From Saccharibacillus sacchari DSM 19268 (GTDB taxonomy: Bacteria > Bacillota > Bacilli > Paenibacillales > Paenibacillaceae): DNA of 64,000 nt. Location: NCBI RefSeq assembly GCF_000585395.1, contig NZ_KK073875.1, forward strand, positions 3,385,307 to 3,449,306, read 5' to 3'. The notes beneath the pieces were generated by a model that had not been told where the DNA came from, ran no database searches, and was given only the letters and a program-made list of their open reading frames with translations. Shown here one piece after another: positions 11,694-63,074 of this stretch; within the stretch, counting starts at the first letter, position 1; the number at the start of each line of letters is the position of its first letter. A program made the position numbers and the translations under genes.

Positions 11694-11799
11694 GCGGAGG
11701 GAGAAATTCGATTGAAGAAGCCTTTGAACTCGGAAAAAACAAATAAAAACTTCAATCTATTTTCCGAGTGAGACAGCGCCCGAAACGAATTTCTCCCGC
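11694..11799 (+). repeat. Intergenic covarying palindrome, copy A
   Basis: The outer arms GGGAGAAATTC and GAATTTCTCCC pair, as do the inner arms CTCGGAAAA and TTTTCCGAG. Conserved words are GCCTTTGAACT before, and GTGAGACAGCG after, the centre. It lies in the 425-bp gap between the isomerase-like and helicase genes. The rest of that gap, 11538-11690, holds only a short CCTTTC/GGAAAGG hairpin. Confidence 0.8.
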
Positions 11800-11861
11800 A
11801 GCCGTCTAAGCTTCCCCAAACATAACTCCCCCGATTTTCGCGGATAGGTTTCTTTTCCCTC

Positions 11862-11890
11862 TCGCCAAAATGACGGTTTCCGGTTATAAT
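11862..11890 (+). promoter_or_regulatory. Sigma-A promoter for the helicase gene
   Basis: TCGCCA (11862-11867) and a perfect TATAAT (11885-11890) are separated by 17 bp. Transcription would begin near 11897, downstream of ATG 11870, so that ATG cannot be the start of the helicase. Confidence 0.6.
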
Positions 11891-11962
11891 GACGGGTGGC
11901 CCGATTGGCAACCGTTTGACAATCCCGCCAAATCCGCAAGATCAATGGAGGCTATCACCGCT

Positions 11963-13900
11963 TTGACGACTACTTATCCATTTACGTTCGACCCCGCGGC
12001 CCCTTTTCTGGACCAGGCTTCCGACTGGATCGCGGACGTCTTTTACGATATTTTGCCCGAAGCCGGCTTCGAGACCCGTGACGAACAGATCTTCATGGCG
12101 TTTCAATTGGAGCGCGCTTATAAAGAAAAGAAAACCATCTTTGCCGAAGCCGGAGTGGGAACGGGCAAGACGCTCGTATACCTGCTGTACGCTTCATTAT
12201 ATGCACGTTATACACGCAAACCGGCCGTTATCGCCTGCGCCGACGAGTCGCTGATCGAGCAGCTGGTTAAGCCGGAAGGCGACATTGCCAAGATTGCCCG
12301 CCATTTGAATTTGAACATCGACGTACGGCTCGGCAAATCCCAGGATCAATATTTGTGTTTGAACAAACTTGAAGAAGTCCGCGGACCGGGCAGCGAAAAC
12401 GAAGTGTTCCAAAACATCTACGAAGAACTGCCGCCGTTCGTGCATTTTCCGGATACCCTTCAATCGTTCTATCCGTACGGTAGCCGTAAAGATTACCCGG
12501 AATTGGACGACAAGCAGTGGGATCAAGTCGGCTGGGACGTGTTCCAAGATTGTCTGATCTGTCCGCGCCGTCATCGCTGCGGTCAGACGCTGTCGCGCGA
12601 TCATTACCGCAAAGCAACGGACTTGATCGTTTGCTCGCACGACTTTTACATGGAGCACGTCTGGACTTACGAAGCGCGCAAGCGCGAAGGCCAGCTTCCG
12701 CTGCTGCCCGAGCACAGCTCGGTCGTCTTCGACGAAGGCCACCTGCTGGAGACTGCCGCGCAAAGCGCATTGACTTACAAACTCAAACATTCGGCTTTCG
12801 AATCGATCGTGACGCGCCTTCTTGAAGGCGAAGTTCGCGAATCGCTCGCGCTGGCGGTCGAACATGCCATCGAACGCAGCGACGATCTGTTCGAGCTGGT
12901 CCATCGCTACAGCACGCCGGTTCCGGCATCGCAGCGTAACGAACTTGAACTTTCTGCCGAGTTGATGAAGGGCGTGAACGCTTTCCGCGCGGCGGTCGAT
13001 GCGATCGAGGAAGAAATCGTGTTCGAGAGCGGAATGTTCAGTCTTGACGAGTATCAACTGCGCATCGTGGAAGAGCACTTGGAAATGATGCAGACCGCGC
13101 TCGCTTTGTTCGCCAACCCGCGCGAGCTGATCTGTTGGACGCAGGACGATCAAGGCGACATGACGCTGGTATTGATGCCGAAGAAGGTAAAAGAGATCCT
13201 GAACGAACGCGTCTTTTCCAAAAAGATGCCGATCATCTTCTCCTCCGCGACATTGTCGGCCGACGAATCGTTCGATTACATCGCGGACAGCCTCGGAGTC
13301 AGCGAATACCAGTCGTTCTCGGTGGCTTCGCCGTATGACTACGAAGAAAGCATGCAAGCCCGCCTGAGCACGGAAACAACCGTCGCGATCAAAACGGATC
13401 ATGTGCTTCGCGCTTTGGAGCGCCGAGAAGGCGGCATGCTGCTGCTGTTCCCGTCCCGCGAATCGATGGAAGCTTTCCGTTTCGAAGCCGACTCGCGTCT
13501 TGAGTTCGCAGACTTCCCGATCCTATATGAAGGCGATGCCGAAATCAGCCGCCTGATCTCGGAATTCCAGAACGGCAAGCTGGTGAATCTCTGTGCGGTT
13601 ACGCTATGGGAAGGTCTGGACGTTCCGGGCGATTCGCTGAATCATGTCGTGATCTGGGAATTGCCGTTCCCGCCGAACGATCCGGTCTTCGCCGCGAAGC
13701 GTCGCGAGTCTGCCGATCCGTTCGGCGAAGTGGATATGCCGCACATGCTGCTGAGATTGCGTCAAGGCATCGGGCGCTTGATCCGCACGAGCGGGGATCG
13801 CGGACGCGTCGATATCTTCGGCGAAGCATTAAACCAACAGGGCGTGCGCGAACGAGTGAGCAGTCTACTGCCGGCCAGCGCCGCAAAGGAGAATGAATAA
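11963..13900 (+). CDS. dinG: DinG/XPD-type ATP-dependent DNA helicase
   Basis: A helicase of about 645 residues. Walker A is AEAGVGTGKT and the DEAH-type box is VVFDEGHLLE. Later motifs include FSSATLSADESF and RLRQGIGRLIRTSGDRG. Four Cys (132, 197, 200, 206 from this start) have the spacing of the DinG iron-sulfur cluster: one Cys far ahead, then C-x2-C-x5-C. No exonuclease domain precedes the helicase, unlike B. subtilis DinG. TTG 11963 is chosen because TGGAGG lies 11 bp upstream and the promoter TATAAT is at 11885; ATG 11945 in frame is the alternative. These enzymes unwind forked or R-loop DNA in repair. The DUF6509-like gene overlaps the stop. Confidence 0.85.
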   Translation: MTTTYPFTFDPAAPFLDQASDWIADVFYDILPEAGFETRDEQIFMAFQLERAYKEKKTIFAEAGVGTGKTLVYLLYASLYARYTRKPAVIACADESLIEQLVKPEGDIAKIARHLNLNIDVRLGKSQDQYLCLNKLEEVRGPGSENEVFQNIYEELPPFVHFPDTLQSFYPYGSRKDYPELDDKQWDQVGWDVFQDCLICPRRHRCGQTLSRDHYRKATDLIVCSHDFYMEHVWTYEARKREGQLPLLPEHSSVVFDEGHLLETAAQSALTYKLKHSAFESIVTRLLEGEVRESLALAVEHAIERSDDLFELVHRYSTPVPASQRNELELSAELMKGVNAFRAAVDAIEEEIVFESGMFSLDEYQLRIVEEHLEMMQTALALFANPRELICWTQDDQGDMTLVLMPKKVKEILNERVFSKKMPIIFSSATLSADESFDYIADSLGVSEYQSFSVASPYDYEESMQARLSTETTVAIKTDHVLRALERREGGMLLLFPSRESMEAFRFEADSRLEFADFPILYEGDAEISRLISEFQNGKLVNLCAVTLWEGLDVPGDSLNHVVIWELPFPPNDPVFAAKRRESADPFGEVDMPHMLLRLRQGIGRLIRTSGDRGRVDIFGEALNQQGVRERVSSLLPASAAKENE

Positions 13901-14196
13901 TGGAATTTACAGAGTATACAGTAGAGAAAATTCGCGACGCATTCGGCATCGTGCAGGGAGAACGCTACGAATTCGTGCTTGAATTCGAAGTGGATGAAGA
14001 AGACGAGCTTTACACGCCGCAAGGGCTGCTGCTGCGCGTCATCTACAGCGTGAACGGGGAAGAAAAGAAGATCGTGAAGCACGAGATTATCGAACGCGGT
14101 ACGCAAAAAGTACTCGAGTTTGATCTCGAAGACGACGAACTGGAAGAAACCGAAGCTTTTTGCGCGGCGCACTATAACGAAGGCGAAGAATCGTAA
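13900..14196 (+). CDS. DUF6509-like small acidic protein
   Basis: A 98-residue, strongly acidic soluble protein. It begins MEFTEYTVEKIRDAFGIVQG and ends in an acidic helix (LEDDELEETEAFCAAHYNEG). From memory it matches the DUF6509 proteins of Bacillales, which have no known function. Its ATG overlaps the helicase stop codon (TAATGG), and AAAGGAGAA lies 7 bp upstream, so the two are translationally coupled. A strong terminator follows. Confidence 0.7.
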   Translation: MEFTEYTVEKIRDAFGIVQGERYEFVLEFEVDEEDELYTPQGLLLRVIYSVNGEEKKIVKHEIIERGTQKVLEFDLEDDELEETEAFCAAHYNEGEES

Positions 14197-14235
14197 GCCG
14201 GAATCCCGATCCGCTTGCATTGCCCATACGTATCA

Positions 14236-14275
14236 AAACAGCCGATGTTCTTTATAAAGAACATCGGCTGTTTTG
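14236..14275. terminator. Bidirectional terminator
   Basis: A perfect stem of AAAACAGCCGATGTTCTTT against its complement, with a tiny loop. It has A and T runs on the two sides and sits between the convergent DUF6509-like and MpsC-like genes. Confidence 0.9.
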
Positions 14276-14311
14276 CATGCGGTGTTGGCGTTTTAATGAA
14301 AATAGTACCCG

Positions 14312-15007
14312 TTATCCGGCTTCAGAATCATTTTCCGTAAAGTCCAACGTCAGCAAGCTGAGGTCGTCTTCGAAAGCCCAATCCAAATAAGCGGCATTCA
14401 GCTTGCGATTCAGCAGCTCTTGGAGAGGGAGTTCTTCCAGAAATCGGTCCAGTTCCAACTCGCGCTTGGCTACCCGAAGCTGGCTGTTAAAGCCTTTTTT
14501 GACGAGCTTTTTTTCCAAATTGATCAATAATCCGCTTCGAATGATTAACAACAGATCATTCTGCAACCAGAATGATTCGATGCTTACCGGCGATTTTTGG
14601 ACCTGTTCGGTAACGGATTCCACAACGTGATGCAATTCGGCTTTGCCTGCATACAGATCTTCGGCATAAGGTTCGTTATCAGGCTTCAGCAATACGGCGA
14701 TCAGCGCGGTATCGGATTCGATCTTCCAGTCGATGTACGCGTAATCCGTTTTTCTGCCCGTTAACTTTTCAATCTTGGGACGAATGGAAGGGAAAATAAA
14801 TTGTTCGAGTAAAATATAAATGTGCGTGTAACATTCGTCTGGATCTTTGGGCAGGCGTTCGTCCCGGACATCGGTCAAACCTCGGTAAAAAAACAGAATC
14901 GAGCGTTCGTTCGAACGAATGTCGACGGACTCCGGAGATTTGCCGAATTGGCTTTTGCATAAAAGTTTGGAATAGTCTTGAAGAGTTTGAAGCGTCTCGT
15001 TGTCCAT
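14312..15007 (-). CDS. MpsC-like (DUF2294) protein, two tandem units
   Basis: A 231-residue soluble protein. It looks like two units of the DUF2294/MpsC type. The first runs from about residue 10 to 110 (GKSPESVDIRSNERSILFFY through KTDYAYIDWKIESDTALIAV). The second runs from about 130 to 225 (KSPVSIESFWLQNDLLLIIR through NAAYLDWAFEDDLSLLTLDF). The paired YIDW/YLDW motifs support an internal duplication. MpsC was named in a Staphylococcus sodium-translocating system, but no such system is nearby, so a role cannot be given. The start 15007 has GAAAGGAG upstream; in-frame starts further up do not. The family assignment is from memory and moderately sure. Confidence 0.55.
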   Translation of the reverse strand: MDNETLQTLQDYSKLLCKSQFGKSPESVDIRSNERSILFFYRGLTDVRDERLPKDPDECYTHIYILLEQFIFPSIRPKIEKLTGRKTDYAYIDWKIESDTALIAVLLKPDNEPYAEDLYAGKAELHHVVESVTEQVQKSPVSIESFWLQNDLLLIIRSGLLINLEKKLVKKGFNSQLRVAKRELELDRFLEELPLQELLNRKLNAAYLDWAFEDDLSLLTLDFTENDSEAG

Positions 15008-15172
15008 CTGGATCGAACTCCTTTCCATATGCCTATCCATTACCCGCAATCAAGATCGAGAACATCTTATCCACAACAATTTTTTTGAAGGATTATAGTT
15101 ATCAAATAAACGTTTGCTTCCGATAATGAAAACAAGAGAGCGATTTTGCATTGTGCAAGGAGAGGGACAACC

Positions 15173-16234
15173 ATGATTCGCGACTTATTTATTAACTTCT
15201 GCTTGTTGTCTACTTTCCTTTTTTTCGGAGACATGGCGCATAATATGCTGCGTGTGCGGTTCAAGCTCAGTCCCTGGATCCTCAACGGGGTATCCGGAGT
15301 CGGCCTGGGTTTATTCGGCATTTTGCAGTTAGTGTTCACTTTTGAACTTTCCAACGGGCTTTTGCTTGATTTTCGCCAGCTTTCGATCATGGTAGCAGCA
15401 GGCATCGGCGGACCCTGGGCAGCCTTGATCGCGACTCTGTTGATCGGAGCGGGGCGGATTGCGATCGCCGGAGGGTTCACGCCCGCATCCGTGCTCGGAT
15501 TGATCGCGACGCTGCTTACATTCGTGTTCGTGCTGCCGGCTTTTCTGGTCAAAGGCTCGCTTCGAAGACAGTGGACGTTGGCTGCTTTGTCCACCACTTT
15601 TCTCGCGCTCGGCTTATTGTTATACCGTCTCGGCGAATCGGGCATTCCGCTGATTTTGTTTCTGGCCGTCCTTCAAGCGGCGGGCTGCACGTTTACGTAT
15701 CATATGATGCGTTATCTGCGCGCGACCCGCGAGATTCAGGACGCGTTGAAGCAGGACATCGAGCATGATTTCTTGACGGGGCTTTACAATTCGCGAGGCT
15801 TTGAATCCAGGTACCGTCTCGCGATCGCATCGGGCAGTCCGTTCGCTTTGTTGCTGCTGGATATCGACCATTTCAAAAAGGTTAACGATACGTACGGCCA
15901 TCCGGCAGGCGACGCCGTACTGGAACAGCTCGGCAAGCTTATCCGGGAATACGTCCGCAAAATCGGCTGCGCTTCGCGTAAAGGCGGCGAGGAATTCGCG
16001 GTAATCCTGAGGCCGTGCGATTCGAAACGCGCGATCGAAAATGCGGATAAACTGCGCGCGCAAATCGAACAGACGCCGTTTCTTTTGCCGGACGGCCAAA
16101 TCATTCATATCACGATCTCGGTCGGAATCGGAATGTATCCGCGTTTCTCCGAAAGCAAACTCGTCGAAGAAACCGACCGCGCCCTTTACCGCGCCAAGCA
16201 GGAGGGCCGCAACCGCGGCGTTTTGGCAGTTTGA
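15173..16234 (+). CDS. Membrane diguanylate cyclase (GGDEF)
   Basis: A 353-residue protein with an N-terminal five- to six-helix membrane sensor (about residues 1-185, 5TM-5TMR_LYT type), then a GGDEF domain (about 195-353). The active loop is RKGGEEF, an accepted GGEEF variant. DHFKKVNDTYGHPAGD holds the metal-binding Asp, and ISVGIGMYP follows the usual pattern. It should make cyclic di-GMP from two GTP. No RxxD inhibitory site is visible five residues before the loop. AAGGAGAGGG lies 6 bp upstream of ATG 15173. No EAL or PilZ gene is nearby. Confidence 0.9.
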   Translation: MIRDLFINFCLLSTFLFFGDMAHNMLRVRFKLSPWILNGVSGVGLGLFGILQLVFTFELSNGLLLDFRQLSIMVAAGIGGPWAALIATLLIGAGRIAIAGGFTPASVLGLIATLLTFVFVLPAFLVKGSLRRQWTLAALSTTFLALGLLLYRLGESGIPLILFLAVLQAAGCTFTYHMMRYLRATREIQDALKQDIEHDFLTGLYNSRGFESRYRLAIASGSPFALLLLDIDHFKKVNDTYGHPAGDAVLEQLGKLIREYVRKIGCASRKGGEEFAVILRPCDSKRAIENADKLRAQIEQTPFLLPDGQIIHITISVGIGMYPRFSESKLVEETDRALYRAKQEGRNRGVLAV

Positions 16235-16249
16235 ATAACCTTTGCAAAA

Positions 16250-20715: not shown

Positions 20716-20745
20716 CATTTTTCGAGAAAGTTACGTATGCGCGGG

Positions 20746-20878
20746 GAAGCGAGAAGACTGCGAGATAAATTCGTTCAAGACGCTGTCTCACTTGGAAAAG
20801 TCGATTGAAATTTTGAGTTGAAGTTTTCCAAGTTCAAAGGCGTCTTTCACTGAATTTCTCTCTCCGTCTTCTCGCTTC
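20746..20878 (-). repeat. Intergenic covarying palindrome, copy B
   Basis: In reverse orientation relative to copy A. The outer arms GAAGCGAGAAGAC and GTCTTCTCGCTTC match perfectly. The inner arms CTTGGAAAA and TTTTCCAAG differ from copy A on both sides together. TTTCGAGAAA/TTTCTCGAAA pairing continues outside to about 20720 and 20900. Copies B and C fill most of the 699-bp gap 20716-21414. Confidence 0.8.
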
Positions 20879-21052
20879 CAGCTACGTTTGATTTTCTCGA
20901 AACGTTATGTCTTTTCTTTTTAAAAGTTGTAGTTTATTAAATTTTTCTATATACATTTTCGCTTTCCGTTGCGTTAGAACTTCTTGTAAACGTAGAGTTT
21001 TCTTTGAAAGTTCATGATGTATTGGCACTTGTACTTTCGGCGAGAGACCCAA

Positions 21053-21245
21053 GCGGAGGGAGGAATTCAGTGTAGGTGAAGCATTTCGAAGAAATGCACT
21101 TCGGAAGCCTATGCTATAAGCGATCGCCTTTGTATTTAAGAAGCTTCCTATAAAAATTCCAATCCAGCTTCCCAAATGCAACACGCGACCTGAAGCCTTT
21201 CGGAGAAAGGCACATCGAAAGCATAAGCTAACGAATTCCTCCCGC
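21053..21245 (+). repeat. Intergenic covarying palindrome, copy C (long form)
   Basis: The outer arms GGGAGGAATTC and GAATTCCTCCC pair, with the same change in both arms relative to copy A. The middle is longer and holds CAACACGCGACC, as in copy H. Inner hairpins such as CATTTCGAAGAAATG and GCCTTTCGGAGAAAGGC lie within it. Confidence 0.7.
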
Positions 21246-21333
21246 AGCGCCTGCCCTCGGATTCTAAAAGAACATGATCTCAAGCCCTTGTCGAAAGGGC
21301 TTTTTCCATTCTAAAAAAGAAAGCGAAGAACGC

Positions 21334-23598: not shown

Positions 23599-23762
23599 GT
23601 TCCTATTCAGGAGGGCGAAGCAGGGGCGGCTGCGGGAGAAATTCGGTAAAGTCGCTGTCTCACTCGGAAAAACTGATTAGAATTTTTAGTGGAGGTTTTC
23701 CGAGTTCAAAGGCGTCTTGACCTGAATTTCTCCCTCCGTCTACGCTTCGCCGGAATAGGAAC
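23599..23762 (-). repeat. Intergenic covarying palindrome, copy D
   Basis: In reverse orientation. Its layers are GTTCCTATTC/GAATAGGAAC, GGCGAAGC/GCTTCGCC, GGGAGAAATTC/GAATTTCTCCC and CTCGGAAAA/TTTTCCGAG, so almost the whole 164 bp can fold on itself. It lies in the 312-bp gap after mhqD, which holds nothing else of note. Confidence 0.8.
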
Positions 23763-27840: not shown

Positions 27841-27862
27841 GCGAATTTCTCCTGCAACGCCT
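27841..27862 (+). repeat. Half copy of the intergenic palindrome (remnant)
   Basis: GCGAATTTCTCCTGCAACGC matches the right end of copies A and E, but no left arm is found. It sits between the permease and AlkX-like genes. Confidence 0.45.
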
Positions 27863-27962
27863 AACGCTTCTCCGCCCAAAAAATCAGGAACCGGACAACC
27901 TGCTGTCCGGTTTTTCCCGATAGAATAGAAGGATCAAACTATGTAAGGAAAGGGGCAAACCG

Positions 27963-29320: not shown

Positions 29321-29681
29321 TCACGTTTTTATCACATTTTCTGCAAAATCGCCCTTAAATGGAATGTCCAAAAGATCAGCGTACATTTCACTAATCTTCT
29401 GATCAGCGTCAATCTGCATTTTGGAAGTTACGTGCGTATAGATTTTTAAAGTGGTTTTTGCATCGTCGTGTCCGACACGCTTCATGATCATTGGCAATGG
29501 CACACTAGCTTCAGCTAAGAGCGAAATAAAGGTATGTCGGAAGATGTGAGGGGTGGCGTTTTTCTTGATTGTGGTTTGTTTTAAAATACTGCGCATTTTT
29601 TGTATGAACCTTTTTGAAGAAAGAGGATAACCATCACTTTTAGAGAAAATAAATCCTCCATCATGTAGAGGTTTATTTTTT
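29321..29681 (-). pseudogene. Tyrosine recombinase (integrase), C-terminal remnant
   Basis: About 120 codons remain. The core catalytic signatures are present: HIFRHTFISLLAEA (His-x-x-Arg), the His in RVGHDDAKTTLKIYTHVT and, in the same stretch, the Tyr nucleophile (KIYTHVT). Upstream of the internal Met at 29596 the frame stays open to the IS30 end at 29682 and reads as more integrase (GGFIFSKSDGYPLSSKRFIQ), so the gene was cut by the IS and has lost its N-terminal DNA-binding part. Its 3' end faces the attL repeat, the usual position for a site-specific integrase of a phage or island. Confidence 0.85.
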
Positions 29682-30758
29682 GACGAATTGTCAATCCAAG
29701 TGCAACACTTCGTCCTGAAACGATTCGTGTGTAGACTTCCAACCTAAACATTTGCGAGGCCGGTTGTTAATGAGGTGAAGCGCCTGTTCGAGTTCGGCAT
29801 CGGTCACTTGGGCAAAATCGTGGCCTTTGGGGAAAAACTCCCGAAGCAGGCCGTTCGCGTTCTCATTGGAACCCCGCTGCCAAGAGGAGTACGGATCGGC
29901 GAAATAGACATCTACGCCATGCCGTCGCTCTAGCGCTTCATGACACGCGAATTCCTTTCCTCGGTCTACAGTCGCGGTTTGAATGACCGACTTGGGGTAC
30001 TGACCGGCCAGCACGCCAAACGCAATTTCCATCGATAAAGCCGTTCGATTCGGCATCTTAATCGCTTGGTAAAACCGTGTTTTTCGCTCCACAAAGGTCG
30101 CGACGCACGCTTTACTTTTCCCCCGGCTAGAGACGACGGTGTCTAGTTCCCAGTGTCCAAATGTTTCCCGGTCACGAATGGTTTTCGGACGCTGCCGAAT
30201 CGATTTGCCAACGGTAAAACGTCCACGTTTCTCAGGTGGCTTTTGGCGCTTGCCTTTGTGCCTTAGAATTTGGAGATTCCCTCGGCCCAGCAGACCCGCG
30301 TAGAGCCAGTTGTACAGTGTTTTAAAAGCAACGGTAGGAAGTCCTTTGGCTTTGCGGCTGTGTTGGATTTGTTCGGGTGAATACGTCTTTTCGAAGTCGG
30401 CCTCGATCTCACCCGTCAACTCTGGATTCCACTTGCCGTGTGGCTTCGAATTTCCCCTTCTGGAAACGTAGGCGTTTTGTGCCTCTTGGGCCTTGTATTC
30501 TCGGTCGGTTCCATTACGTGTAAGCTCTCGGCTGACGGCTCCAGCCGAACGTCCGAGTGCCCGGCCAATGGCTCGTACCCCGGCTCCCTGACTGCGCAGC
30601 AACTCTAGTTTACTACGCTCGATTATGCTAAAATGCGTATAGTCCATGGTCGGATTCTCCTTGTAGAGGGTGTTGTGGTGACTTCATTCTACACGAATCC
30701 GGCCATGGGCCCTTTTTATATTCAGTTTGAGGTGTTGCACTTCATTTTACAATCCGTC
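29682..30758 (-). mobile_element. IS30-family insertion sequence, copy 1 (intact)
   Basis: A 1077-bp element with imperfect terminal inverted repeats beginning GACGAATTGT and GACGGATTGT and sharing AAGTGCAACAC. It contains one intact transposase gene. It interrupts the integrase gene. No matching direct repeats are seen in the bases just outside (TTTTT left, ATATG right), which suggests rearrangement after insertion. Confidence 0.85.
29691..30647 (-). CDS. IS30-family transposase
   Basis: A 318-residue transposase that appears complete. The N-terminal part has helix-turn-helix blocks (FSIIERSKLELLRSQGAGVR; RSAGAVSRELTRNG). The C-terminal part is the DDE catalytic domain: first Asp in FGHWELDTVV, second in TATVDRGKEF and Glu in GSNENANGLLREFFP. 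It cuts and joins IS ends. The start has AAGGAGAATCCGACC before ATG. It is more GC-rich than the island around it, so the IS had a different source from the cargo. Confidence 0.9.
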   Translation of the reverse strand: MDYTHFSIIERSKLELLRSQGAGVRAIGRALGRSAGAVSRELTRNGTDREYKAQEAQNAYVSRRGNSKPHGKWNPELTGEIEADFEKTYSPEQIQHSRKAKGLPTVAFKTLYNWLYAGLLGRGNLQILRHKGKRQKPPEKRGRFTVGKSIRQRPKTIRDRETFGHWELDTVVSSRGKSKACVATFVERKTRFYQAIKMPNRTALSMEIAFGVLAGQYPKSVIQTATVDRGKEFACHEALERRHGVDVYFADPYSSWQRGSNENANGLLREFFPKGHDFAQVTDAELEQALHLINNRPRKCLGWKSTHESFQDEVLHLD

Positions 30759-34621: not shown

Positions 34622-36054
34622 CCATTATCGCGATTTTAATCTTTTTACTTACACTGACTTTTGTGATTTGGCAACCTAAGGGGCTTAATATTGGATGGTC
34701 AGCGTCAGCTGGAGCTGTCCTTGCTCTTCTTTTTGGAGTTGTGAGTCTATCCGATGTAGGTACGGTCACAGGAATCGTATGGAACGCTACGCTTGCTTTC
34801 GTAGCTATTATCTTAATTTCGCTAATCTTAGATGAAATCGGTTTTTTTGAATGGGCTGCACTGCACATGGCAAGGCTCGCAAGAGGTAATGGCAAGCTGA
34901 TGTTCGTTTATGTTGTGCTGCTTGGAGCAGCGGTGGCAGCGTTCTTTGCAAATGACGGTGCCGCACTGATATTAACACCCATTGTGCTTGCCATGGTCCG
35001 AGCGCTCAAATTTGATCAAAAGATGATTTTACCTTTTATCATCGCAAGTGGTTTTATTGCAGATACAACTTCACTTCCGCTCGTCGTTAGTAACCTCGTC
35101 AATATCGTTTCTGCGGATTACTTCGGTATTGGTTTTGTGGAGTATGCAAGTCGTATGATTGTTCCGAATTTCTTTTCAATTTTAGCGAGTCTTCTGGTCT
35201 TATTCTTGTTCTTTAGAAAGAGTATTCCAGGCAACTATGAAGTCAGTCAGCTCAAAAAACCAGCTGAAGCGATTAAGGACAAGAAACTGTTCAGAATATC
35301 TTGGATGATATTAGCCGTGCTACTGGTTGCGTACTTGATGAGCGAGTTCATTCAAGTTCCGGTGTCAGTTATCGCTGGGGTTATTGCAATCTTGTTTATT
35401 TTAGCTGCACGACGGAGTCACGCTATTCAAACATGGAAGCTCATCAAAGGGGCTCCATGGGCAGTAGTGATTTTCTCAATTGGTATGTACGTCGTCGTCT
35501 ATGGACTACGAAATGTGGGATTGACAGATGAACTTGGGAAGGTCATTCAAGCTATTGCCGACAAAGGACTCTACATCTCCACACTTGGTATGGGCTTTCT
35601 AGCTGCGGTATTGTCTTCGGTTATGAACAATATGCCGACAGTAATGATTGATGCGCTTGCAATTGAAGGAACGAATACGCAAGGTGTCATTCGGGAATCG
35701 CTGATTTATGCCAATATTATCGGCAGTGACTTGGGTCCTAAAATTACACCGATTGGCTCACTCGCAACACTTTTGTGGCTACATGTACTGTCCCGTAAGG
35801 ATGTAAAAATCACGTGGGGAAGTTATTTCAAAATTGGGATTGTACTCACCATCCCAACGCTCTTTATCACGTTAACAGGACTGTATTTGTGGCTACACTT
35901 GATCCATTCAACAAACATAAACGTTTGGTTAATGATTGCCGTAATCACAGCCATATTGGTTGTTATCGCTTGGATCATCAAAGCGTTGATTAATCCAAAA
36001 ATGGGCGAAGCGAAAATACAAGTAAGCCAAACCGAAGATAAAGGAGATCAATAA
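34618..36054 (+). CDS. arsB: ArsB-family arsenite efflux permease
   Basis: A 478-residue membrane protein with about 12 helices of the ArsB/NhaD (ion transporter) superfamily. It contains the conserved [18 protein letters not shown] and the later [18 protein letters not shown]. These Asn-Asp/Asn-Asn hairpins lie in the re-entrant transport sites. It exports arsenite, and perhaps antimonite, alone or with ArsA; no arsA gene is seen. It is about 45 residues longer than common ArsB because of an extra C-terminal hydrophobic segment ([20 protein letters not shown]) and a polar tail. It is translationally coupled to arsR and followed by arsC. Confidence 0.92.
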
Positions 36055-38368: not shown

Positions 38369-39444
38369 GACGGATTGTAAAATGAAGTGCAACACCTCGA
38401 ACTGAATATAAAAAGGCCCAAGGCCGGACTCGTGTAGAATGAAGTCACCATAACACCCTCTACAAGGAGAATCCGACCATGGACTATACGCATTTTAGCA
38501 TAATCGAGCGTAGTAAACTAGAGTTGTTGCGTAGTCAGGGAGTCGGGGTACGAGCCATTGGCCGGGCACTCGGACGTGCGGCTGGGGCCGTCAGCCGAGA
38601 GCTTAAACGTAATGGAACCGACCGGAAATACAAGGCCCAAGAGGCACAAAACGCCTACGTTTCCAGAAGGGGAAATTCGAAGCCACACGGCAAGTGGAAT
38701 CCGGCATTGGCGAGCGAGATCGAGGCTGACTTCGAAAAGACGTATTCACCCGAACAAATCCAGCACAGCCGTAAAGCCAAAGGACTTCCTACGGTTGCTT
38801 TCAAAACGCTGTACAACTGGCTCTATGCCGGTCTGCTGAGCCGGGGGAATCTCCAAGTTCTACGGCACAAAGGCAAGCGCCAGAAACCGCCGGAGACGCG
38901 TGGACGTTTTCAGATTGGGAAATCTATTTGGCAGCGCCCCAAAGCTATCCGTGACCGGGAAACATTCGGTCACTGGGAACTAGACACGGTCGTTTCCAGC
39001 CGGGGAAAAAGCAAAGCTTGCGTCGCGACATTCGTCGAACGAAAAACACGTTTTTACCAAGCCATTAAGATGCCGAATCGGACCGCGTTGTCGATGGAAA
39101 TCGCGTTTGGCGTGCTGGCCGCACCGATGCCCAAATCAGCGATTCAAACCGCAACGGTAGACCGGGGCAAAGAGTTTGCCTGTTACAAATCGTTAGAGCG
39201 TCTGCACGGCGTAGACGTGTATTTCGCCGATCCGTATTGCTCTTGGCAGCGTGGCTCCAACTAGAACGCGAACGGCTTGCTTCGGGAATTTTTCCCTAAA
39301 GGTCACGACTTTGCTCAGGTGACAGATGCCGAACTTGAACAGGCGCTTCACCTCATCAACAACCGGCCTCGCAAATGTTTAGGTTGGAAATCCACACACG
39401 AATCCTTTCAGAATGAAGTGTTGCACTTGGGTTGACAATTCGTC
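38369..39444 (+). mobile_element. IS30-family insertion sequence, copy 2 (inactive)
   Basis: A 1076-bp element with the same ends as copy 1 (GACGGATTGT... and ...ACAATTCGTC) but in the opposite orientation. The two copies point away from each other and bracket the cargo. It differs from copy 1 at many positions, so it is not a fresh duplicate. No clean target duplication is visible. Confidence 0.85.
38479..39435 (+). pseudogene. IS30-family transposase with internal stop
   Basis: The 318-codon frame aligns end to end with the intact transposase of copy 1 but has TAG at codon 262 (39262-39264). In copy 1 this codon is GAG for the catalytic Glu (GSNENANG), so one G-to-T change removed the third DDE residue and ended translation. 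The frame then continues cleanly to TGA 39433. The start has AAGGAGAATCC before the ATG. Confidence 0.88.
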
Positions 39445-39489
39445 ATATATTATTTAGTACTACACATACAAAGATCAAAGATATCTTTA

Positions 39490-42538: not shown

Positions 42539-42645
42539 GCGGAGGGAGAAATTCAGTGAAAGACGCCTTTGAACCGGGAAACATTCCACTAAACATCTAA
42601 TCGACTTTTCCCGGTGAGACAGTGTCTTGAACGAATTTCTCCCGC
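42539..42645 (+). repeat. Intergenic covarying palindrome, copy E
   Basis: The outer arms GGGAGAAATTC/GAATTTCTCCC pair, as do the inner arms CCGGGAAA/TTTCCCGG. It lies between the amidohydrolase start and the end of the substrate-binding protein gene. Confidence 0.8.
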
Positions 42646-42700
42646 AGCCCTAAGCCTTTAGCGAACAGGATTTTCGCAGCAACCCGAAGGGCTGAGACCC

Positions 42701-54384: not shown

Positions 54385-54617
54385 GGAGCCGTTAATGGCT
54401 CCATCAGAATGCTCTCGGAAGTCACGTATGCGGGAGAAGACAGAAGGCTCCGAGAGAAATTCGTTCAAAACGCTGTTTCACTTGGAAAACTGGATTGGAA
54501 TTTGGTTTGGAAGTTTTACAAGTTCAAAGGCGTATTGAACTGAATTTCTCTCTCCGCCTTCTGTCTTCCAGCTACGTTAGACTTTCTTGATATGTTGACG
54601 AAGCCATTAATGGCTCC
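54385..54617. repeat. Two GGCTCC hairpins flanking palindrome copy F
   Basis: GGAGCCGTTAATGGCTCC (54385-54402) and GAAGCCATTAATGGCTCC (54601-54617 region) are near-identical, each self-complementary, and lie on either side of copy F. Confidence 0.5.
54436..54568 (-). repeat. Intergenic covarying palindrome, copy F
   Basis: In reverse orientation. The outer arms GAAGACAGAAGGC/GCCTTCTGTCTTC are perfect; GAGAGAAATTC/GAATTTCTCTC is next. The inner CTTGGAAAA has a damaged partner (TTTTACAAG). The flanks (CACGTATGCG before, CCAGCTACGTT after) are like those of copy B. Confidence 0.8.
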
Positions 54618-54739: not shown

Positions 54740-54830
54740 GCGGAGGGGAAAATTCAGTGAAAGACGCCTTTGAACGAGGAAAGCTGAAAGCTTTCTTCGT
54801 GAGACAGCGTCTTGAACGAATTTTCCCCGC
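54740..54830 (+). repeat. Intergenic covarying palindrome, copy G
   Basis: The outer arms GGGGAAAATTC and GAATTTTCCCC pair, both changed relative to copy A. The inner arms GGAAAGC and GCTTTC, and GACGC with GCGTC, also pair. Confidence 0.8.
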
Positions 54831-54872
54831 AGCGCCCAAGCTTTTTACCGACTAGGACTTTCGCCAAGCGGG

Positions 54873-57729: not shown

Positions 57730-57916
57730 AATTAACTGCGAAAATCCATTTATTTAGCCGAATTTTAGCGTTTTGAGAGAAATAACTGCATATATCCAGT
57801 TAAATGGTCTGATCTGCACAGAATAGTGGACGATCGCGCCAAATAACTGGATATACGTAGTTATTTTTTTGAGATGTTTGATGTTGAAAAAATTAACTGG
57901 ATATATGCAGTTATTT
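57730..57916. repeat. Array of four related AT-rich palindromes
   Basis: Units begin near 57731, 57781, 57841 and 57891, so at 50-, 60- and 50-bp steps. The unit is close to AACTGGATATATGCAGTT with AAT on the outside; the outer two differ most. The stretches between units are not alike. Confidence 0.65.
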
Positions 57917-57937: not shown

Positions 57938-58606
57938 CTACAAATGGCGGATCGCCGAGCTTTGTAACGTATAACGAACGATTCGCTTGCCGTCTGTTCC
58001 AGTTATACCTTCGAATAAATGTTGATCGCAAAGCAAGCCCAGCGCCTTAACCGCGGTTCGATGATCCAGCCCAAGATGCGAGCTAACATCGATAGGACGA
58101 ATCGGTCGACCGAGCGTGCAAGCCAAACGGATGATCTCGCGATCTACTACAGTAATTTTTGTGCCGATTTCAGAGTTGCTTGTATATCGTCCCAATACCA
58201 TCCGCAGAAGCGTCATACATAGTTCCGGGCGTTGAGCTACATCATCATAGGCAAAAGAAATCACTTGAAATCCCATTGCGGTCAGAAAAGTCTCGCGGTT
58301 CAGCTCCCGGCAGAATTTGCGGCGATCCATGTCTTGAACATGCGGGCCGAAGCCTTTGATCTCGATCACCAATTTGACGTAAGGCGTGATCCAGACGAAG
58401 TCGCAAAAGTAGGTGAGTCCTCGCCAATCCGTGACTTCATACTCCGGGTGCAGATGGTCGAAGTTTTGCCGGAGCGGCCACCAGACGTTGCGGCAAAATA
58501 GCTGTTCGGCTTCGCGATGTCCCCGTTCCAGACGATCCCGACGTTCGCCGGAGCGTTCCGTAAGATGGTGATCGAGAAATAAACGGTGTGCGGATTTAAA
58601 ATCCAT
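57938..58606 (-). CDS. DUF559-like nuclease with C-terminal winged helix
   Basis: A 222-residue protein. The middle (about residues 55-140) looks like a PD-(D/E)XK nuclease of the DUF559/Vsr group: YFCDFVWITPYVKLVIEIKG holds the D and E-x-K, followed by RRKFCRELNRETFLTAMGFQ and VISFAYDDV. The C-terminal 70 residues look like a winged helix (IRPIDVSSHLGLDHRTAVKA followed by LGLLCDQHLF). GGGAGGCTTTATC precedes ATG 58606. The role is unknown; neighbours give no hint of a defence system. Confidence 0.6.
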   Translation of the reverse strand: MDFKSAHRLFLDHHLTERSGERRDRLERGHREAEQLFCRNVWWPLRQNFDHLHPEYEVTDWRGLTYFCDFVWITPYVKLVIEIKGFGPHVQDMDRRKFCRELNRETFLTAMGFQVISFAYDDVAQRPELCMTLLRMVLGRYTSNSEIGTKITVVDREIIRLACTLGRPIRPIDVSSHLGLDHRTAVKALGLLCDQHLFEGITGTDGKRIVRYTLQSSAIRHL

Positions 58607-58709
58607 GATAAAGCCTCCCTGATAATCCGAATTTGCGTAACGAATGGCAATGAAGCAGCGATAATGAAGCATAGCGATACGAATAACGAGCGATCGATAG
58701 GATAAAACA

Positions 58710-58760
58710 CAAAAAACGTCCCGGCTTCTTTCCTCGTTAAAGGACAGGAGCGGGACGTTC
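58710..58760 (-). terminator. Terminator of the 5'-nucleotidase gene
   Basis: AACGTCCCG/CGGGACGTT with inner CTTTCCT/AGGA pairing. The A-run at its left side is a U-run on the minus strand. Confidence 0.75.
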
Positions 58761-58859
58761 TTCGTCACCGATTCGTTATGAAAAAGATGCTTTTATTATA
58801 GAGCTAAAATAACCCGAACGCAAAACGGAAAGTTATGCGTATCGCGAATCGAAAACAAC

Positions 58860-61013
58860 TTAAGAAGCCGAAGCTTCCAGCGCCGCTTCGATCGCGGCAT
58901 TCGCTTCAGTCAGCGAAACCGTGCCTTTCGGCTGAATGTTGCCTGGCGTTACTTCAACCAGGAAACCTGCTTGTACCAGTTGGGCAACAGGAGTCTTTGC
59001 GTAAGCCGCAACGCTCGAAGCGTCGTCGAATGCGCTCAGTACCGAAGTCGCGTTAACGGTCGGCAGTTGTTGTTTCAACACGTTAGCCAAGATCGAAGCC
59101 AGCTCTTGACGAGTGATTTCTTGATCTGGGTTGAACTTGCCCGCGCCGTAGCCTTTGATGAAACCGGCGTTGACGGCTTCGGCGATCGCGTCTGCGTAAG
59201 GAGCGTCGGCAGCTACGTCAGTAAAGGCTTTGCTTGGAGCGGAAACTGCGTTCAGATCCAAAGCTTCAACCAGTTTGGACACGAAGTCCGCACGGGAGAT
59301 ACCGTCAGTCGACGGAGTCGAAGGCGCCGTTGCCGGGCCGTCCGCATCCGGAGCTTCCGAACCCGCAGCCGGCGTGTTCACGATACGACCGTCAATTTTT
59401 GCCGTGATCGCAGCGCCTTTGAAAGTATCCACAATGTACTTGTAGAAGACGTCCAGGTCGATCGGGCCTGCCAGCGAAGCACTTGCTTGGGTCAGCACTT
59501 TGTAGTTATCTCCGCCGCCTGCCATGAAGTTGTTCACGACTGCCGTGTACGACTTGGCCGGATCGATTGCGGTGCCGTCTGCCAATTGCAGATCGCTAAC
59601 GCGCTCGGCTACCGGTTTGTTCAGGTCGGCTTTGTACTTCAGGCCGGAGATTTGCAGCGTTTTGGTGTTCGGCGTACCGTCCGCGTTCGTTCCCCATTGT
59701 TGTTCCAACAGCTCTTGCACTTGCGCGCCTGTCAGAGTCAGCTTCACGAGCGTGTTGCCGAAAGGCTGAATCTTCGCCAGATCGGCAAAGGTTACGTCGC
59801 CTTTCGGCAGATCGGCACGGATACCGCCCGGGTTCATGAACGCGAAGTCGGCGGCTTCCGCTTTATCGCCGAAATCGGCAGTACGCATGGCGTCAGCGAT
59901 CAGGTTGCCCAGTGCCGCTTCGTTGTTGTAGGCATCCGTGCGCGTCACCGAACCGTCTGTCGTTCCGACCGGTTTGGTCAGTTCCGGGTGCTTCTCCAGG
60001 TATTTCTCGATCAGGGCCACGGATTCCGCGTCAGGCGTTACGCCTTCTTGGAACGTTGTGGTTACGGTAGCGGATTTCTCCGTCACGTCGCCTGTTTTCG
60101 GATCGATCATCAGCTTGATATCTTCAAACGCCGTACCGTACGAGTAAGCTTGAACGATCAGTTTGCCGTTGACTTCGCCGTTAGCCAGAGCGTGGTTGTC
60201 GCCGGCTACGATGACGTCGATCGGCGAATCGGCGGGAAGAGCTTTCGCCAGATCGGCCGCTTCGCCCGTCGTTACGCCTTCCTTCGTGGAAGCCGGGTCA
60301 TGCGCGAGAACGATGATCGTCTCGACGCCTTGGTCTTGCAGTTCTTTCGCATATTTGTTGACCGCCGCCACTTCTTCTTCGACGCTCAGGAAACGAACGC
60401 CTTTTGTACCCGCAGGGGATACTTTCGCCGGAGTCGATTTGGTCACGAGACCGATAAAGCCGATCTTCACGCCGCCTACTTCTTTGATCACGTAAGGATC
60501 GATCAGCGTTTTGCCTGTTGCTTCTTCGATAACGTTCGCGTTCACGTAGTCGAAGTTGGCGCCTTTGTGCGTCACGACGCCGTCTTTCGGATCCAGGCCG
60601 CCGTTCAATTGGGCTTTGAGCGCGGCAATGCCTTGGTCGAATTCGTGGTTGCCCAGCGAGCCGACGTCGAAGCCCATCATGTTCATCCATTCGATGGTCG
60701 GTTCGTCGCGTTCCAGCGAAGAGATTGGAGCGGAAGCGCCGACGGAGTCGCCGTTGTGGAACAGAAGCGAATGCTCGTATTTGGCTTGAGCCTGCTTCAA
60801 ATATGTAGCGAGAATAGGAGCAGTGCCAGCCGCTTTGTCGGCTACGATCGAAGTCGTGTCCAGCTGTCCGTGCAGATCGTTAATGCCGAGCAGGTGGACT
60901 TCGACGTCGCCTTCAGCTGCCGAAGCGGTTCCCGCGGCGCCCAATACCTGAGCCGAGATCAGCGCTGCCGCCGCGAACCCGACGCTAGGTCTTCTCCAAG
61001 ATTTCCAATTCAT
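58860..61013 (-). CDS. SLH-anchored 5'-nucleotidase (UshA-like)
   Basis: A 717-residue exported enzyme. A signal peptide ends near GTASAAEGDV. The metallophosphatase part (about 35-300) has GINDLHGQ, FHNGDSVG, GNHEFDQG, VAGDNHALANG. The substrate-binding 5_nucleotid_C part (about 330-530) has NPGGIRADLPKGDVTFADL and FMAGGGDNYKVL. After a Pro/Ala linker, SLH repeats (about 570-717) have SRADFVSKLVEALDL and GYGAGKFNPDQEITRQE. It should free phosphate from nucleotides at the cell surface. The ribosome site AGGGGG is 12 bp from the ATG. The long plus-strand frame through it is a shadow. Confidence 0.9.
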   Translation of the reverse strand: MNWKSWRRPSVGFAAAALISAQVLGAAGTASAAEGDVEVHLLGINDLHGQLDTTSIVADKAAGTAPILATYLKQAQAKYEHSLLFHNGDSVGASAPISSLERDEPTIEWMNMMGFDVGSLGNHEFDQGIAALKAQLNGGLDPKDGVVTHKGANFDYVNANVIEEATGKTLIDPYVIKEVGGVKIGFIGLVTKSTPAKVSPAGTKGVRFLSVEEEVAAVNKYAKELQDQGVETIIVLAHDPASTKEGVTTGEAADLAKALPADSPIDVIVAGDNHALANGEVNGKLIVQAYSYGTAFEDIKLMIDPKTGDVTEKSATVTTTFQEGVTPDAESVALIEKYLEKHPELTKPVGTTDGSVTRTDAYNNEAALGNLIADAMRTADFGDKAEAADFAFMNPGGIRADLPKGDVTFADLAKIQPFGNTLVKLTLTGAQVQELLEQQWGTNADGTPNTKTLQISGLKYKADLNKPVAERVSDLQLADGTAIDPAKSYTAVVNNFMAGGGDNYKVLTQASASLAGPIDLDVFYKYIVDTFKGAAITAKIDGRIVNTPAAGSEAPDADGPATAPSTPSTDGISRADFVSKLVEALDLNAVSAPSKAFTDVAADAPYADAIAEAVNAGFIKGYGAGKFNPDQEITRQELASILANVLKQQLPTVNATSVLSAFDDASSVAAYAKTPVAQLVQAGFLVEVTPGNIQPKGTVSLTEANAAIEAALEASAS

Positions 61014-61052
61014 AAACGTGTATTCCCCCTAAGTGTTTGTTGGTGCCGTCAT

Positions 61053-61082
61053 ATTGTATCACAGGGATTTTTTTAAAATCAA
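61053..61082 (-). promoter_or_regulatory. Promoter of the 5'-nucleotidase gene
   Basis: On the minus strand, TTGATT (61077-61082) and TACAAT (61053-61058) are 18 bp apart. Confidence 0.6.
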
Positions 61083-61138
61083 AGGTTATGTAAGCGCTGT
61101 GTTAAATATTTTTAAAATCGTTTTCGAAAAACGCGGAT

Positions 61139-61168
61139 TTGACAGGTCGGTCGCGTCCGTGATATAAA
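61139..61168 (+). promoter_or_regulatory. Promoter of the tyrS leader
   Basis: TTGACA (61139-61144) and TATAAA (61163-61168) are 18 bp apart, just ahead of the T-box leader. Confidence 0.65.
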
Positions 61169-61179
61169 GTGAATCAATA

Positions 61180-61477
61180 AGCGTCCGGCCTGCGGAGCTT
61201 TATAGAAAGCGTTGAAGGGAATCCAGTAGTGTTCAGATCCGTACTTTCAGAGAGCCGTCGGTTGGTGCGAGGCGGTAGGCGAATGAATGCGAATTACGTC
61301 CCGGAGCTTCCCGTTTCCGAACCCGCGAGAGCGGAAGGAGCGGGACGGAATCGTCCACGTTATCGGGCGTCAGAGTGGGAAACGCGCCTTCGCAAGTGTT
61401 GAAGCGCCTTTCCAATAAGGGTGGTACCGCGATTAAGACTCGTCCCTGCAGAAATGCAGCAGGCCGGGTCTTTTTTA
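61180..61477 (+). ncRNA. T-box riboswitch (tyrosine specifier)
   Basis: The invariant AGGGTGGTACCGCG lies at 61418-61431. The terminator (GACTCG... with CTGCA/TGCAG and CCGGGTC, then a U-run) ends near 61477. A Tyr codon TAC at 61295-61297 in GAATTACG fits the specifier loop on the 3' side of stem I. Uncharged tRNA-Tyr would free the T-box to form the antiterminator and allow tyrS transcription. Confidence 0.92.
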
Positions 61478-61503
61478 TTTTCCCATTTTGAAGGAGGACA
61501 TTG

Positions 61504-62805
61504 ATGATGACAAACGAACATACCCCGATCGAAGCCAACGCGCTGCTGGACGATCTCGAATACAGAGGGCTGATCTACCAGGTGACGCACCGCGAGGAGC
61601 TTCAGAAAAAGCTAAGCGAAGAAAGCGTCACGTTCTACAACGGCTTCGACCCGACGGCGGACAGCCTGCATATCGGTCACCTGCTGCCGGTTCTGACCAT
61701 GCGCCGTTTCCAATTGGCCGGACACCGTCCGATCGCTCTCGTCGGCGGCGGCACGGGCATGATCGGCGACCCGAGCGGACGTTCCACCGAGCGCTCGCTG
61801 AACACCGCCGATACGGTAGCGGAATGGACGCTCAAGCTGCAAAACCAACTCTCGCGCTTCCTGGACTTCGGCAGCGGCGACGCATCGGTGTCTGCGAAAA
61901 TGGTCAGCAACTACGACTGGCTCGGCCCGATCTCGATGATCGACTTCCTGCGCGACGTGGGCAAGAACTTCACCGTTAACTACATGCTCGCCAAAGATTC
62001 CGTCGATTCCCGTCTTCAACACGGTATCTCGTTCACCGAGTTCTCTTACATGATCCTTCAAGCCTACGATTTCCAACGTCTGCACGAAGATGAGAATTGC
62101 TCGCTGCAACTGGGCGGAAGCGACCAGTGGGGCAACATTACGGCAGGCCTGGATCTTATCGGCAAAACGGGCGGCGGCGACGCGTTCGGAATGACGATGC
62201 CTTTGGTTACGAAAAGCGACGGCAAAAAGTTCGGCAAATCCGAATCCGGCGCCGTCTGGCTCGACCGCAGCAAAACGAGCGCGTACGCCTTCTACCAGTT
62301 CTGGATCAACACCGACGACGCGGACGTGATCAAGTTCCTGAAATACTTCACGTTCCTGACTCGCGAGGAAATTGCGGAACTCGAAACCCAGCATCTCCAA
62401 GCGCCGGAACAACGCAACGCGCAGCGCGAACTCGCCCGCCGCGTGACGACATTGGTGCATGGCGAAGAAGCCGTAATCAGCGCCGAAAAAATCACCGCAG
62501 CCCTGTTCTCGGGAAGCTTCGCTGAACTGAGCGAGTCCGATCTGGCCGAAGCCCTGGCAGATATGCCAACCACTTCCGCCGCAGCCTCGTCCGAGCCTCT
62601 GCTGATCGACCTGCTCGTCGAAGCCGGCGCCGCTCCGTCCAAAGGCCAAGCCCGCAAAGACATCCAAAGCGGCGCGGTCTCCGTCAACGGCGAAAAACGC
62701 ACGTCGATCGAAACGGTCATCACCGCAGAAGACCGCCTGCACGGCAAAACCCTTGTCCTTCGCCGCGGCAAAAAGAATTACTTCGTCGTGAAATTCGAAG
62801 GCTAA
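61504..62805 (+). CDS. tyrS: Tyrosyl-tRNA synthetase
   Basis: A 433-residue class I synthetase. The HIGH motif is in DSLHIGHLLPVL; the tyrosine and ATP site includes GGGTGMIGDPSGRS and GGSDQWGN. The KMSKS loop is KKFGKSESG (KFGKS form). The last 65 residues are an S4 RNA-binding domain (APSKGQARKDIQSGAVSVNG). It charges tRNA-Tyr. AAGGAGG lies 6 bp before ATG 61504 (ATG 61507 is also possible). A T-box in the leader controls it. Confidence 0.96.
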   Translation: MMTNEHTPIEANALLDDLEYRGLIYQVTHREELQKKLSEESVTFYNGFDPTADSLHIGHLLPVLTMRRFQLAGHRPIALVGGGTGMIGDPSGRSTERSLNTADTVAEWTLKLQNQLSRFLDFGSGDASVSAKMVSNYDWLGPISMIDFLRDVGKNFTVNYMLAKDSVDSRLQHGISFTEFSYMILQAYDFQRLHEDENCSLQLGGSDQWGNITAGLDLIGKTGGGDAFGMTMPLVTKSDGKKFGKSESGAVWLDRSKTSAYAFYQFWINTDDADVIKFLKYFTFLTREEIAELETQHLQAPEQRNAQRELARRVTTLVHGEEAVISAEKITAALFSGSFAELSESDLAEALADMPTTSAAASSEPLLIDLLVEAGAAPSKGQARKDIQSGAVSVNGEKRTSIETVITAEDRLHGKTLVLRRGKKNYFVVKFEG

Positions 62806-62873
62806 ATTTTTTTTATTTCGACCTTTGATTATGCAATTTAAAATCTTTCATTAAGCCCTTTAAGTTGAAAGAA

Positions 62874-62911
62874 AGCGGATCAGGCATCCATTGCCCGATC
62901 CGCCTTTTTTT
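62874..62911 (+). terminator. Terminator after tyrS
   Basis: GCGGATC and GATCCGC with inner GGCA/TGCC pairing, then seven T's. Confidence 0.85.
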
Positions 62912-62958
62912 ATTATCTTTTTTCCCTTTCTCTCTTTGATTGTCACAGTGCCGAAGGA

Positions 62959-63074
62959 GCGGAGGGTGGATGCGTGCAGGAGCGATAGCGTTCGCCTTTG
63001 AATCCGGGAAATCCCCCTTTAAAAATCCAATCAAAATTTCCCGGATTCAACACGCGACCGAAACCATCCACCCG
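62959..63074 (+). repeat. Intergenic covarying palindrome, copy H
   Basis: The outer arms GGGTGGATG and CATCCACCC pair, both unlike copy A. The inner ATCCGGGAAAT and ATTTCCCGGAT pair perfectly. TTCGCCTTTGAA and CAACACGCGACC are kept. It lies in the 295-bp gap between the convergent tyrS and LysR genes. Confidence 0.8.

Follow-up and report, generated by a model that had tools for sequence, protein, structure and literature searches.

The 64,000-nucleotide stretch of the Saccharibacillus sacchari DSM 19268 genome analysed here (contig NZ_KK073875.1, positions 3,385,307 to 3,449,306; hereafter the window) carries eight long intergenic palindromes and a half copy, all of which were found at the places given by an initial annotation made from the sequence alone. 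According to our analysis, these palindromes are most likely copies of a non-autonomous element of about 200 bp, resembling a miniature inverted-repeat transposable element (MITE), with terminal inverted repeats (TIRs) of the IS1182 type and a conserved imperfect hairpin at its centre, which an IS1182 transposase would mobilize in trans, using terminators as targets. At the sequence level, this reading draws on the TIRs shared with IS1182-family insertion sequences (ISs), on stem-loop duplications at most TIR-intact copies and around three of four IS1182 copies, on some insertion polymorphism, on a very uneven copy number within the genus, on the en bloc exchange of inner hairpins and on compensatory variation across genera.

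In Saccharibacillus, the hairpin forms the core of the MITE-like element, which is longer than first described, being bounded by terminal repeats and, in places, by duplicated flanking terminators. The TIRs are of the type CA...TGTCGAGAAAGTC and are common to the element and to IS1182-family ISs of the same genus up to TGTCGAGAAA. They were recognized as CAGAATGTCGAGAAAGTC in the sister species (genome G006), as CAACGTGTCGAGAAAGTC and CAGGCTGTCGAGAAAGTC in genome G003, where the core is enclosed by CAACGTGTCGAGAAAGTC...GACTTTCTCGACAGCCTG, and as 19 exact TGTCGAGAAAGTC in the source genome of the window (G000). Among the 150 copies listed for the source genome, 51 left flanks lie within three mismatches of TGTCGAGAAAGT (control: 3/150), and 38 right flanks have a TIR with at most three mismatches, versus 12 in the control. 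Moreover, a scan of named genomes for a pattern combining TIR and core returned 27 stretches, all from Saccharibacillus.

In G003, 12 very similar copies among the fetched sequence stretches (loci designated L followed by a number) each have the same stem-loop on both sides, a different one at each locus. A direct repeat (score ≥12) flanks 43 of 50 TIR-intact elements and measures 18–30 bp in 41 of these 43, against 1/981 in the control pairing; the 50 elements were picked for exact TIR ends, many of them from a scan requiring the TIR, so that young copies are over-represented. By eye, the long flanking repeats are nearly all stem-loops with an adjoining A- or T-run, i.e., they resemble intrinsic terminators, the runs being a T-run on the right only at 12 elements, an A-run on the left only at 13, both at 13 and neither at five. 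An orientation bias of the TIR-intact copies relative to the T-tracts was considered and rejected.

The candidate autonomous partners are IS1182-family elements, detected through the domain PF13751 (five matches in G000, two in G003 and one in G011). Four fetched IS copies (L146–L149) bear CAG(A/G)(A/G/C)TGTCGAGAAA at both ends, TGTCGAGAAA being the stretch shared with the TIR of the element; in the two copies from the source genome (L148 and L149), the ends read CAGAATGTCGAGAAAC and CAGGCTGTCGAGAAAC, and the sharing stops after TGTCGAGAAA. The element thus has TIRs in common with an autonomous IS1182 element in its own genome. Target and duplication type are also the same, as L147, L148 and L149 lie between duplicated whole stem-loops of 31, 21 and 20 bp (the L147 repeat exceeds the span of the automatic flank comparison), while L146 is flanked by two different hairpins, without duplication. 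Another locus, L151, has a different TIR and is flanked on both sides by AAAGATCGGGCTTCGGCCCGATCTTT. Two reading frames of the IS transposase, a DDE transposase, match NF033551 (IS1182 family) in order. These frames are adjacent, with GGAAAAAAGC near their junction (L146 and L148; the motif also occurs in L147) in three species, and this arrangement may reflect a programmed frameshift.

In a genome of another genus (G102), eight fetched loci contain an IS1182-type element, of which seven are complete, about 1.9 kb long and carry the core between the start of the transposase and the right TIR; the eighth (L304) is a partial match without the core. The transposase of L300 (487 aa) scores 380 bits against NF033551. 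A target duplication of 6–9 nt, apparently the loop of a flanking hairpin, accompanies six of the seven complete elements and is missing from L303; the stems were judged by eye from the flanks where the automatic pairing score is low (3–6 of 10, for four of these six elements). In these elements, the core comes with outer arms of its own and may therefore be a passenger.

Comparison of species provides cases of insertion polymorphism. At the window copy starting at 54446, the stem-loop GGAGCCGTTAATGGCTCC is present on both sides of the element, as a left copy at 54385–54402 and a diverged right copy at 54600–54617 (no strand assigned to either), and a single GGAGCCGTTAATGGCTCC stem-loop occupies the orthologous place in the sister species. 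The reverse case occurs at G006:C10 260525, with the element in G006 and a single terminator in G000. As for placement, classified from crude gene calls based on open reading frames (ORFs) for 146 of the 150 listed copies of the source genome (one further analysis likewise used 146), convergent gene pairs host 64/146 copies and divergent pairs 12/146, while the 239 copy-free gaps (60 nt or longer) in a 460-kb tile comprise 48 convergent, 54 divergent and 137 codirectional ones. The excess at convergent pairs fits a terminator target.

We propose the following course of events. An IS1182 transposase would act in trans on the TIRs of the element. Its target would be a terminator in extruded hairpin form, attacked at both 5' feet of the stem, and the ensuing repair would produce a second copy of the entire stem-loop. 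As the terminator would still work, insertions would be nearly harmless and build up at the 3' ends of genes. The centre of the element is probably kept because its hairpin form, recognized by a protein or acting as RNA, serves the spread or stability of the element.

The fold of this centre was studied in three alignments, each compared with shuffled rows and with slid pairing partners as controls: A7, with 109 type-A matches of the source genome (96 sources, E ≤1e-17; a subset of its at least 150 copies); A6, with 16 diverse cores kept from 19 candidate rows (L014, L160 and the window copy at 21053 were excluded for extra hairpins); and A8, with 77 rows from other genera. The type-A core begins with GCGGAG and helix P1 (GGGAGAAATTC/GAATTTCTCCC and variants), followed by a bulged A, a short helix and, in many copies, a tandem GA/GA mismatch, then by a helix, the oppositions CU/CA, UU/GA and GA/GA, the inner helix and an AT-rich loop. 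Cores of other genera follow the same plan but differ in the sequences of their helices: P1 is followed by the mini-hairpin P2 near GAGCG..CGCUC, then by CGCC-UUUG, P3, a loop that contains CC and AAUC, CAACA-GCG, RYCGNA and P1'. Seven window copies fold as RNA better than all 200 of their dinucleotide shuffles (z −5.0 to −11.2), and the copy at 21053, folded as DNA, reaches z −4.1, with 1/200 shuffles equally good.

The initial annotation had stated that both arms change with pairing kept and that unpaired words are conserved, and both statements hold at the scale of the genome. In the 109 type-A copies, 23 of 33 pairs changed on both sides, with 234 double-change cells versus 47.6 for shuffled rows and at most 45 for slid partners, and the covariation score is 0.206 (0.096 shuffled; ≤0.078 slid); however, pairing is not kept at 24-130 in 34 copies and at 25-129 in 52 copies out of the 109. 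The unpaired bases C29, U30, G33, A34, G119, A120 and A124 are identical in 109/109 copies and C123 in 108/109, and the outer tandem G-A is found only in about 68/109. The selection pattern of A6 demanded CGCCTTTG and CAACA(C)GCG, so that only its variable pairs are informative; in this alignment, 99.7% of the cells are paired, 12/15 P3 pairs show double changes and the score is 0.566 (0.143 shuffled; ≤0.170 slid). Finally, the A8 score, computed from all 77 rows (73 distinct, low-scoring opposite-strand rows included), is 0.631 (0.172 shuffled; ≤0.202 slid), with 13/15 P3 pairs compensated, and the unpaired C26, U27, C46, C112, A113, G122 and A124, among others, are kept in 63 or 64 of the 64 unique rows among the first 68. 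Covariation thus exceeds that of both controls, as in a structured RNA, but the rows share ancestry, so these counts are not independent events and the events are fewer than the cells.

Part of this paired change appears to concern whole inner hairpins. Twenty orthologous copies of the source genome and the sister species were aligned, and 18 could be compared (122936 and 61126, which gave no automatic cut, were left out): the identity of the inner hairpin is at most 0.75 in six of these 18 pairs, in flanks that are 70–95% identical. Each of the six diverged inner hairpins is closer to a copy elsewhere (e.g., 0.51 to its orthologue and 0.98 to G000:5130172), even if only marginally so for the G000 side of 342405 (0.76 vs. 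0.73). Types A and B, moreover, replace each other at the fixed loci 306032, 373528 and 381830 (tile coordinates), and the window copy at 42539 is common to G006, belongs to a different subtype in G012 and is absent from G013, where a short spacer stands instead. The simplest reading is that whole inner hairpins are swapped between copies by ectopic conversion of the inner block, which, between dispersed copies, would change both arms at once. Such conversion explains the simultaneous change of the arms, but not the origin of new stem sequences. As inner hairpins appear to be exchanged en bloc at fixed loci, the co-changing arms do not reflect fold-by-fold selection only, and the possibility that arms co-change in one genome through en bloc exchange calls for caution in covariation-based RNA discovery in repeats. 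At one orthologous locus (G000 tile 61126; G006:C10 76256), the copy appears inverted between the two species.

Further copies, on which the initial annotation had made its reading depend, were found in the whole genome and in related genomes. A covariance model built from six aligned type-A window copies (R1) detects at least 150 copies in the source genome, all with E ≤6.2e-9, and at least 150 in G006. All 16 genomes of the genus have a match at E ≤0.001, with counts of at least 150, 44, 2, 23, 1, 17, at least 150, 2, 43, 5, 6, 77, 39, 118, 84 and 2. At the family level, R1 matched 18/295 genomes, 11 of these 18 being Saccharibacillus; as this type-A model has a small reach, a second model built from the A6 cores (R2) was needed for the wider family. 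R2 matched 251/290 sampled Paenibacillaceae genomes, in 14/19 genera; five genomes, each from a different genus other than Saccharibacillus, have 22, 82, 59, 23 and 60 copies (E ≤1e-5). Among 398 genomes sampled across the class, 38 were matched (37 from the same family and one from another family of the same order), and no match was obtained outside the order. A described Rfam family was rejected, with no match at the gathering score: in the window, only a T-box located away from the copies passed the cut-off, and one window copy plus ten loci from Saccharibacillus and other genera gave sub-threshold matches only. Among the papers that searches of open-licence PMC text listed, none names this family in its title or at the beginning of its abstract, and an earlier description elsewhere is possible. 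The palindromes thus belong to an abundant, taxonomically confined structured repeat without a match in the Rfam models searched.

On the strands of the source genome, the 150 listed copies were distributed as 58 plus and 92 minus when first listed and as 72 plus and 78 minus after 16 copies had been re-oriented; a replichore or strand pattern was rejected, there being no regional pattern. Close pairs are mostly divergent (minus then plus), at 9/11 for gaps below 2 kb and 7/7 for gaps below 400 bp, their strands having been taken before the re-orientation. Three divergent close pairs were also seen in G085, and tandem arrays instead in G237 and G040.

Several observations weigh against a terminator-seeking IS1182 element. 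Within the source genome, both TIRs (at most three mismatches) are present in only 26/150 copies, a flanking repeat (score ≥12) in only 16/150, versus 10/450 shuffled pairings, and not all of these 16 repeats are stem-loops; in most copies, divergence thus hides the mechanism. The transposase family occurs in only 3/12 genomes of the genus examined, PF13751 being absent from G013 and from G006 despite the at least 150 copies of the latter, and a 13-mer search yielded no long element with exact TIRs, the IS1182 copies having come from the family search. Most copies are older than the split of the two species: in the compared tiles, 21/32 copies of G000 are shared with G006 (three absent, six unalignable, two without a hit) and 21/28 copies of G006 with G000 (five absent, two without a hit). 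Two other differences, at G006:C10 37938 and 381369, look like the loss of the inner hairpin between short repeats rather than a gain. In genera other than Saccharibacillus, the flanking arms are different, and no excess of terminator duplication appears among 64 copies (large scores correspond to tandem arrays, and a terminator scan around these copies gave low counts of 8, 9, 4 and 2 of 64), so that the sequences support mobility through IS1182 in Saccharibacillus only. Finally, the invariance of CGCCTTTG and CAACA(C)GCG in A6 is partly due to construction, and hairpin-templated correction could add to the co-change of the arms.

Among the alternatives, the one that survives best, possible though doubtful, makes the core a functional noncoding or protein-binding RNA module (a 3' UTR element or a processing or stability signal) that the transposon only distributes. 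It would account for unpaired bases that hardly vary, for helices compensated across genera, for the enrichment at gene 3' ends and for the presence in 251/290 family genomes, as well as for the preference of G-U (plus strand) over A-C cells, at 22 vs. 4 in other genera (first 68 rows of A8) and 39 vs. 20 in the type-A copies (30/33 pairs counted). Yet 15 of these 22 G-U cells come from one column pair, genomes of a single genus have between 1 and at least 150 copies, and the copies have no orientation bias relative to neighbouring genes: 36 fall in the arrangement > C > and 34 in < C <, the sides of the runs being likewise balanced. An extended version, which we hold to be rather improbable, would see a functional Paenibacillales RNA module set at many gene 3' ends by terminator-seeking transposons, forming a family-wide network read by a dedicated protein or RNA partner, in which the exchange of inner hairpins would vary the recognized stem while keeping the fold.

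It is also unlikely that the arms are complementary only through hairpin-templated replication or gene conversion of quasi-palindromes, with no selection on the fold. Such a process is in line with the en bloc swaps at orthologous loci and with the pairing, in subtype B, of positions occupied by the tandem G-A mismatches in subtype A, but it should erase the mismatches of the internal loops, which are unchanged in 108–109 of the 109 type-A copies, and 63 or 64 of the 64 unique cores of other genera retain the same unpaired words. Much less credible still is a family of ordinary intrinsic or bidirectional terminators: despite the gene-end location and the strong hairpins, TIR-intact copies have a separate flanking hairpin, duplicated and specific to the locus, while the core is conserved, and the first description of the palindrome as not a simple terminator is borne out, the terminator being the insertion target. 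Least credible of all are repetitive extragenic palindromes (REP/REPIN) moved by a Y1 transposase (RAYT), since the resemblance (abundant palindromic, intergenic sequences, more than 100 copies, head-to-head pairs) is offset by a different size and different ends, by long target duplications at TIR-intact copies and by the absence of PF01797 (Y1_Tnp) matches from G000, while 5/14 control genomes match; of the initial proposal, the mobile element, the copying mechanism and the kept fold stand, but the TnpA-REP route does not.

The IS1182 element that we favour has its closest counterparts in IS1272 and TnSha1 of staphylococci, which belong to the same transposase family and, as described in PMC4923244 and PMC5678879, target hairpins, often terminators, without conserved primary sequence. 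In these accounts, IS1272 replaces the stem-loop and leaves no target duplication, unlike the elements studied here, in which duplication affects the entire stem-loop in Saccharibacillus and, apparently, its loop in G102. These outcomes correspond to pathways b and c, which the text of PMC5678879 (2017) draws only as possibilities, and our loci provide natural sequence evidence for both of these structure-dependent IS1182 outcomes; how a DDE transposase recognizes a DNA hairpin becomes a directly testable question. ERIC, BOX, RUP and Correia elements, compared here through a review (PMC10969869), are likewise short palindromes of intergenic, non-coding DNA that occur in tens to hundreds of copies and give transcripts with stable folds, but in our family the target is the terminator hairpin; neither “IS1182” nor “Paenibacillus” appears in the main text of this review. 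The MRSC-65-2 motif, as presented in PMC11109978, shares a covarying long stem, dozens of copies per genome and an occasional proximity to a transposase. Its representatives, over 20,000 in number, are spread over diverse phyla and have UYCCGG repeats and only one long stem, whereas our family is confined to one order in the class-wide sample and has conserved internal loops and a side hairpin, a distinction that follows from the published description. Integron attC sites, which carry RYYYAAC/GTTRRRY boxes and lie next to cassette genes, were a further kind of element considered.

In the window, the outer-arm words named at first are all present, and the places of the copies are correct, even if the starts first given fall outside the cores as redefined here, by as much as about 30 bases. 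In our orientation, the copies at 11694, 21053, 42539, 54740 and 62959 are on the plus strand, and those at 20755, 23628 and 54446, previously noted at 20746, 23599 and 54436, are on the minus strand; those at 21053 and 62959 belong to the second subtype, B, and the six others to type A. By construction, R1 matches its six source copies (103–124 bits), and it also finds the two copies outside the model, at 62959 (47 bits, E 1.6e-9) and 21053 (29 bits, E 6.9e-5). The type-A cores are located at 11694–11802 (plus; 105.5 bits), between two plus-strand ORFs and with the same copy in G006; at 20755–20867 (minus; 122.5 bits), with IS1182-like outer arms (about 20720–20906) and in a divergent pair with 21053; at 23628–23739 (minus; 122.2 bits), the inner hairpin being shorter at the same locus of G006; at 42539–42649 (plus; 123.5 bits); at 54446–54558 (minus; 114.9 bits), the insertion absent from G006; and at 54740–54833 (plus; 102.8 bits), with a short inner loop. 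The type-B cores extend over 21053–21247 (plus; 28.7 bits with R1, 62.2 with R2), with extra side hairpins in both arms, and 62959–63077 (plus; 47.1 bits with R1, 91.6 with R2), with the mini-hairpin P2. The half copy at 27842–27873 (plus; repeat family D8) is a remnant of the 3' arm only. A side-hairpin module of about 39 nt (GAAGCATTTCGAAGAAATGCACTTCGGAAGC) occurs in either arm of some copies (window 21053–21247; L071 17681; L082 7905; L083 17760) and, by eye, looks more conserved than the arms.

Other repeats differ between the two species. A second palindromic family of about 109–135 nt (TTAATCAG..TTACGTT..) was seen at G006:C10 177920–178030 (L088), 253911–254021 (L092) and 35429–35564 (L081), and is absent at the orthologous sites of G000. 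A third, MITE-like family of at least about 170 nt with ends GGGCGTGTCTTCAAACC (G006:C10 341723–341894, L097; G000 tile 3910–4375, L060) also differs between these species. The window further contains an inverted pair of ISs, 88% alike, at 29674–30716 and 38410–39452, about 7.7 kb apart and with HTH_38 and rve domains, which we take to be IS30-like from this domain content. The T-box leader (61203–61450; 117 bits) closely precedes a gene for tyrosyl-tRNA synthetase, located at 61501. Finally, a repeat of about 26 nt (AAATAACTGGATATA..) is present in three copies within 140 nt (57780–57916).

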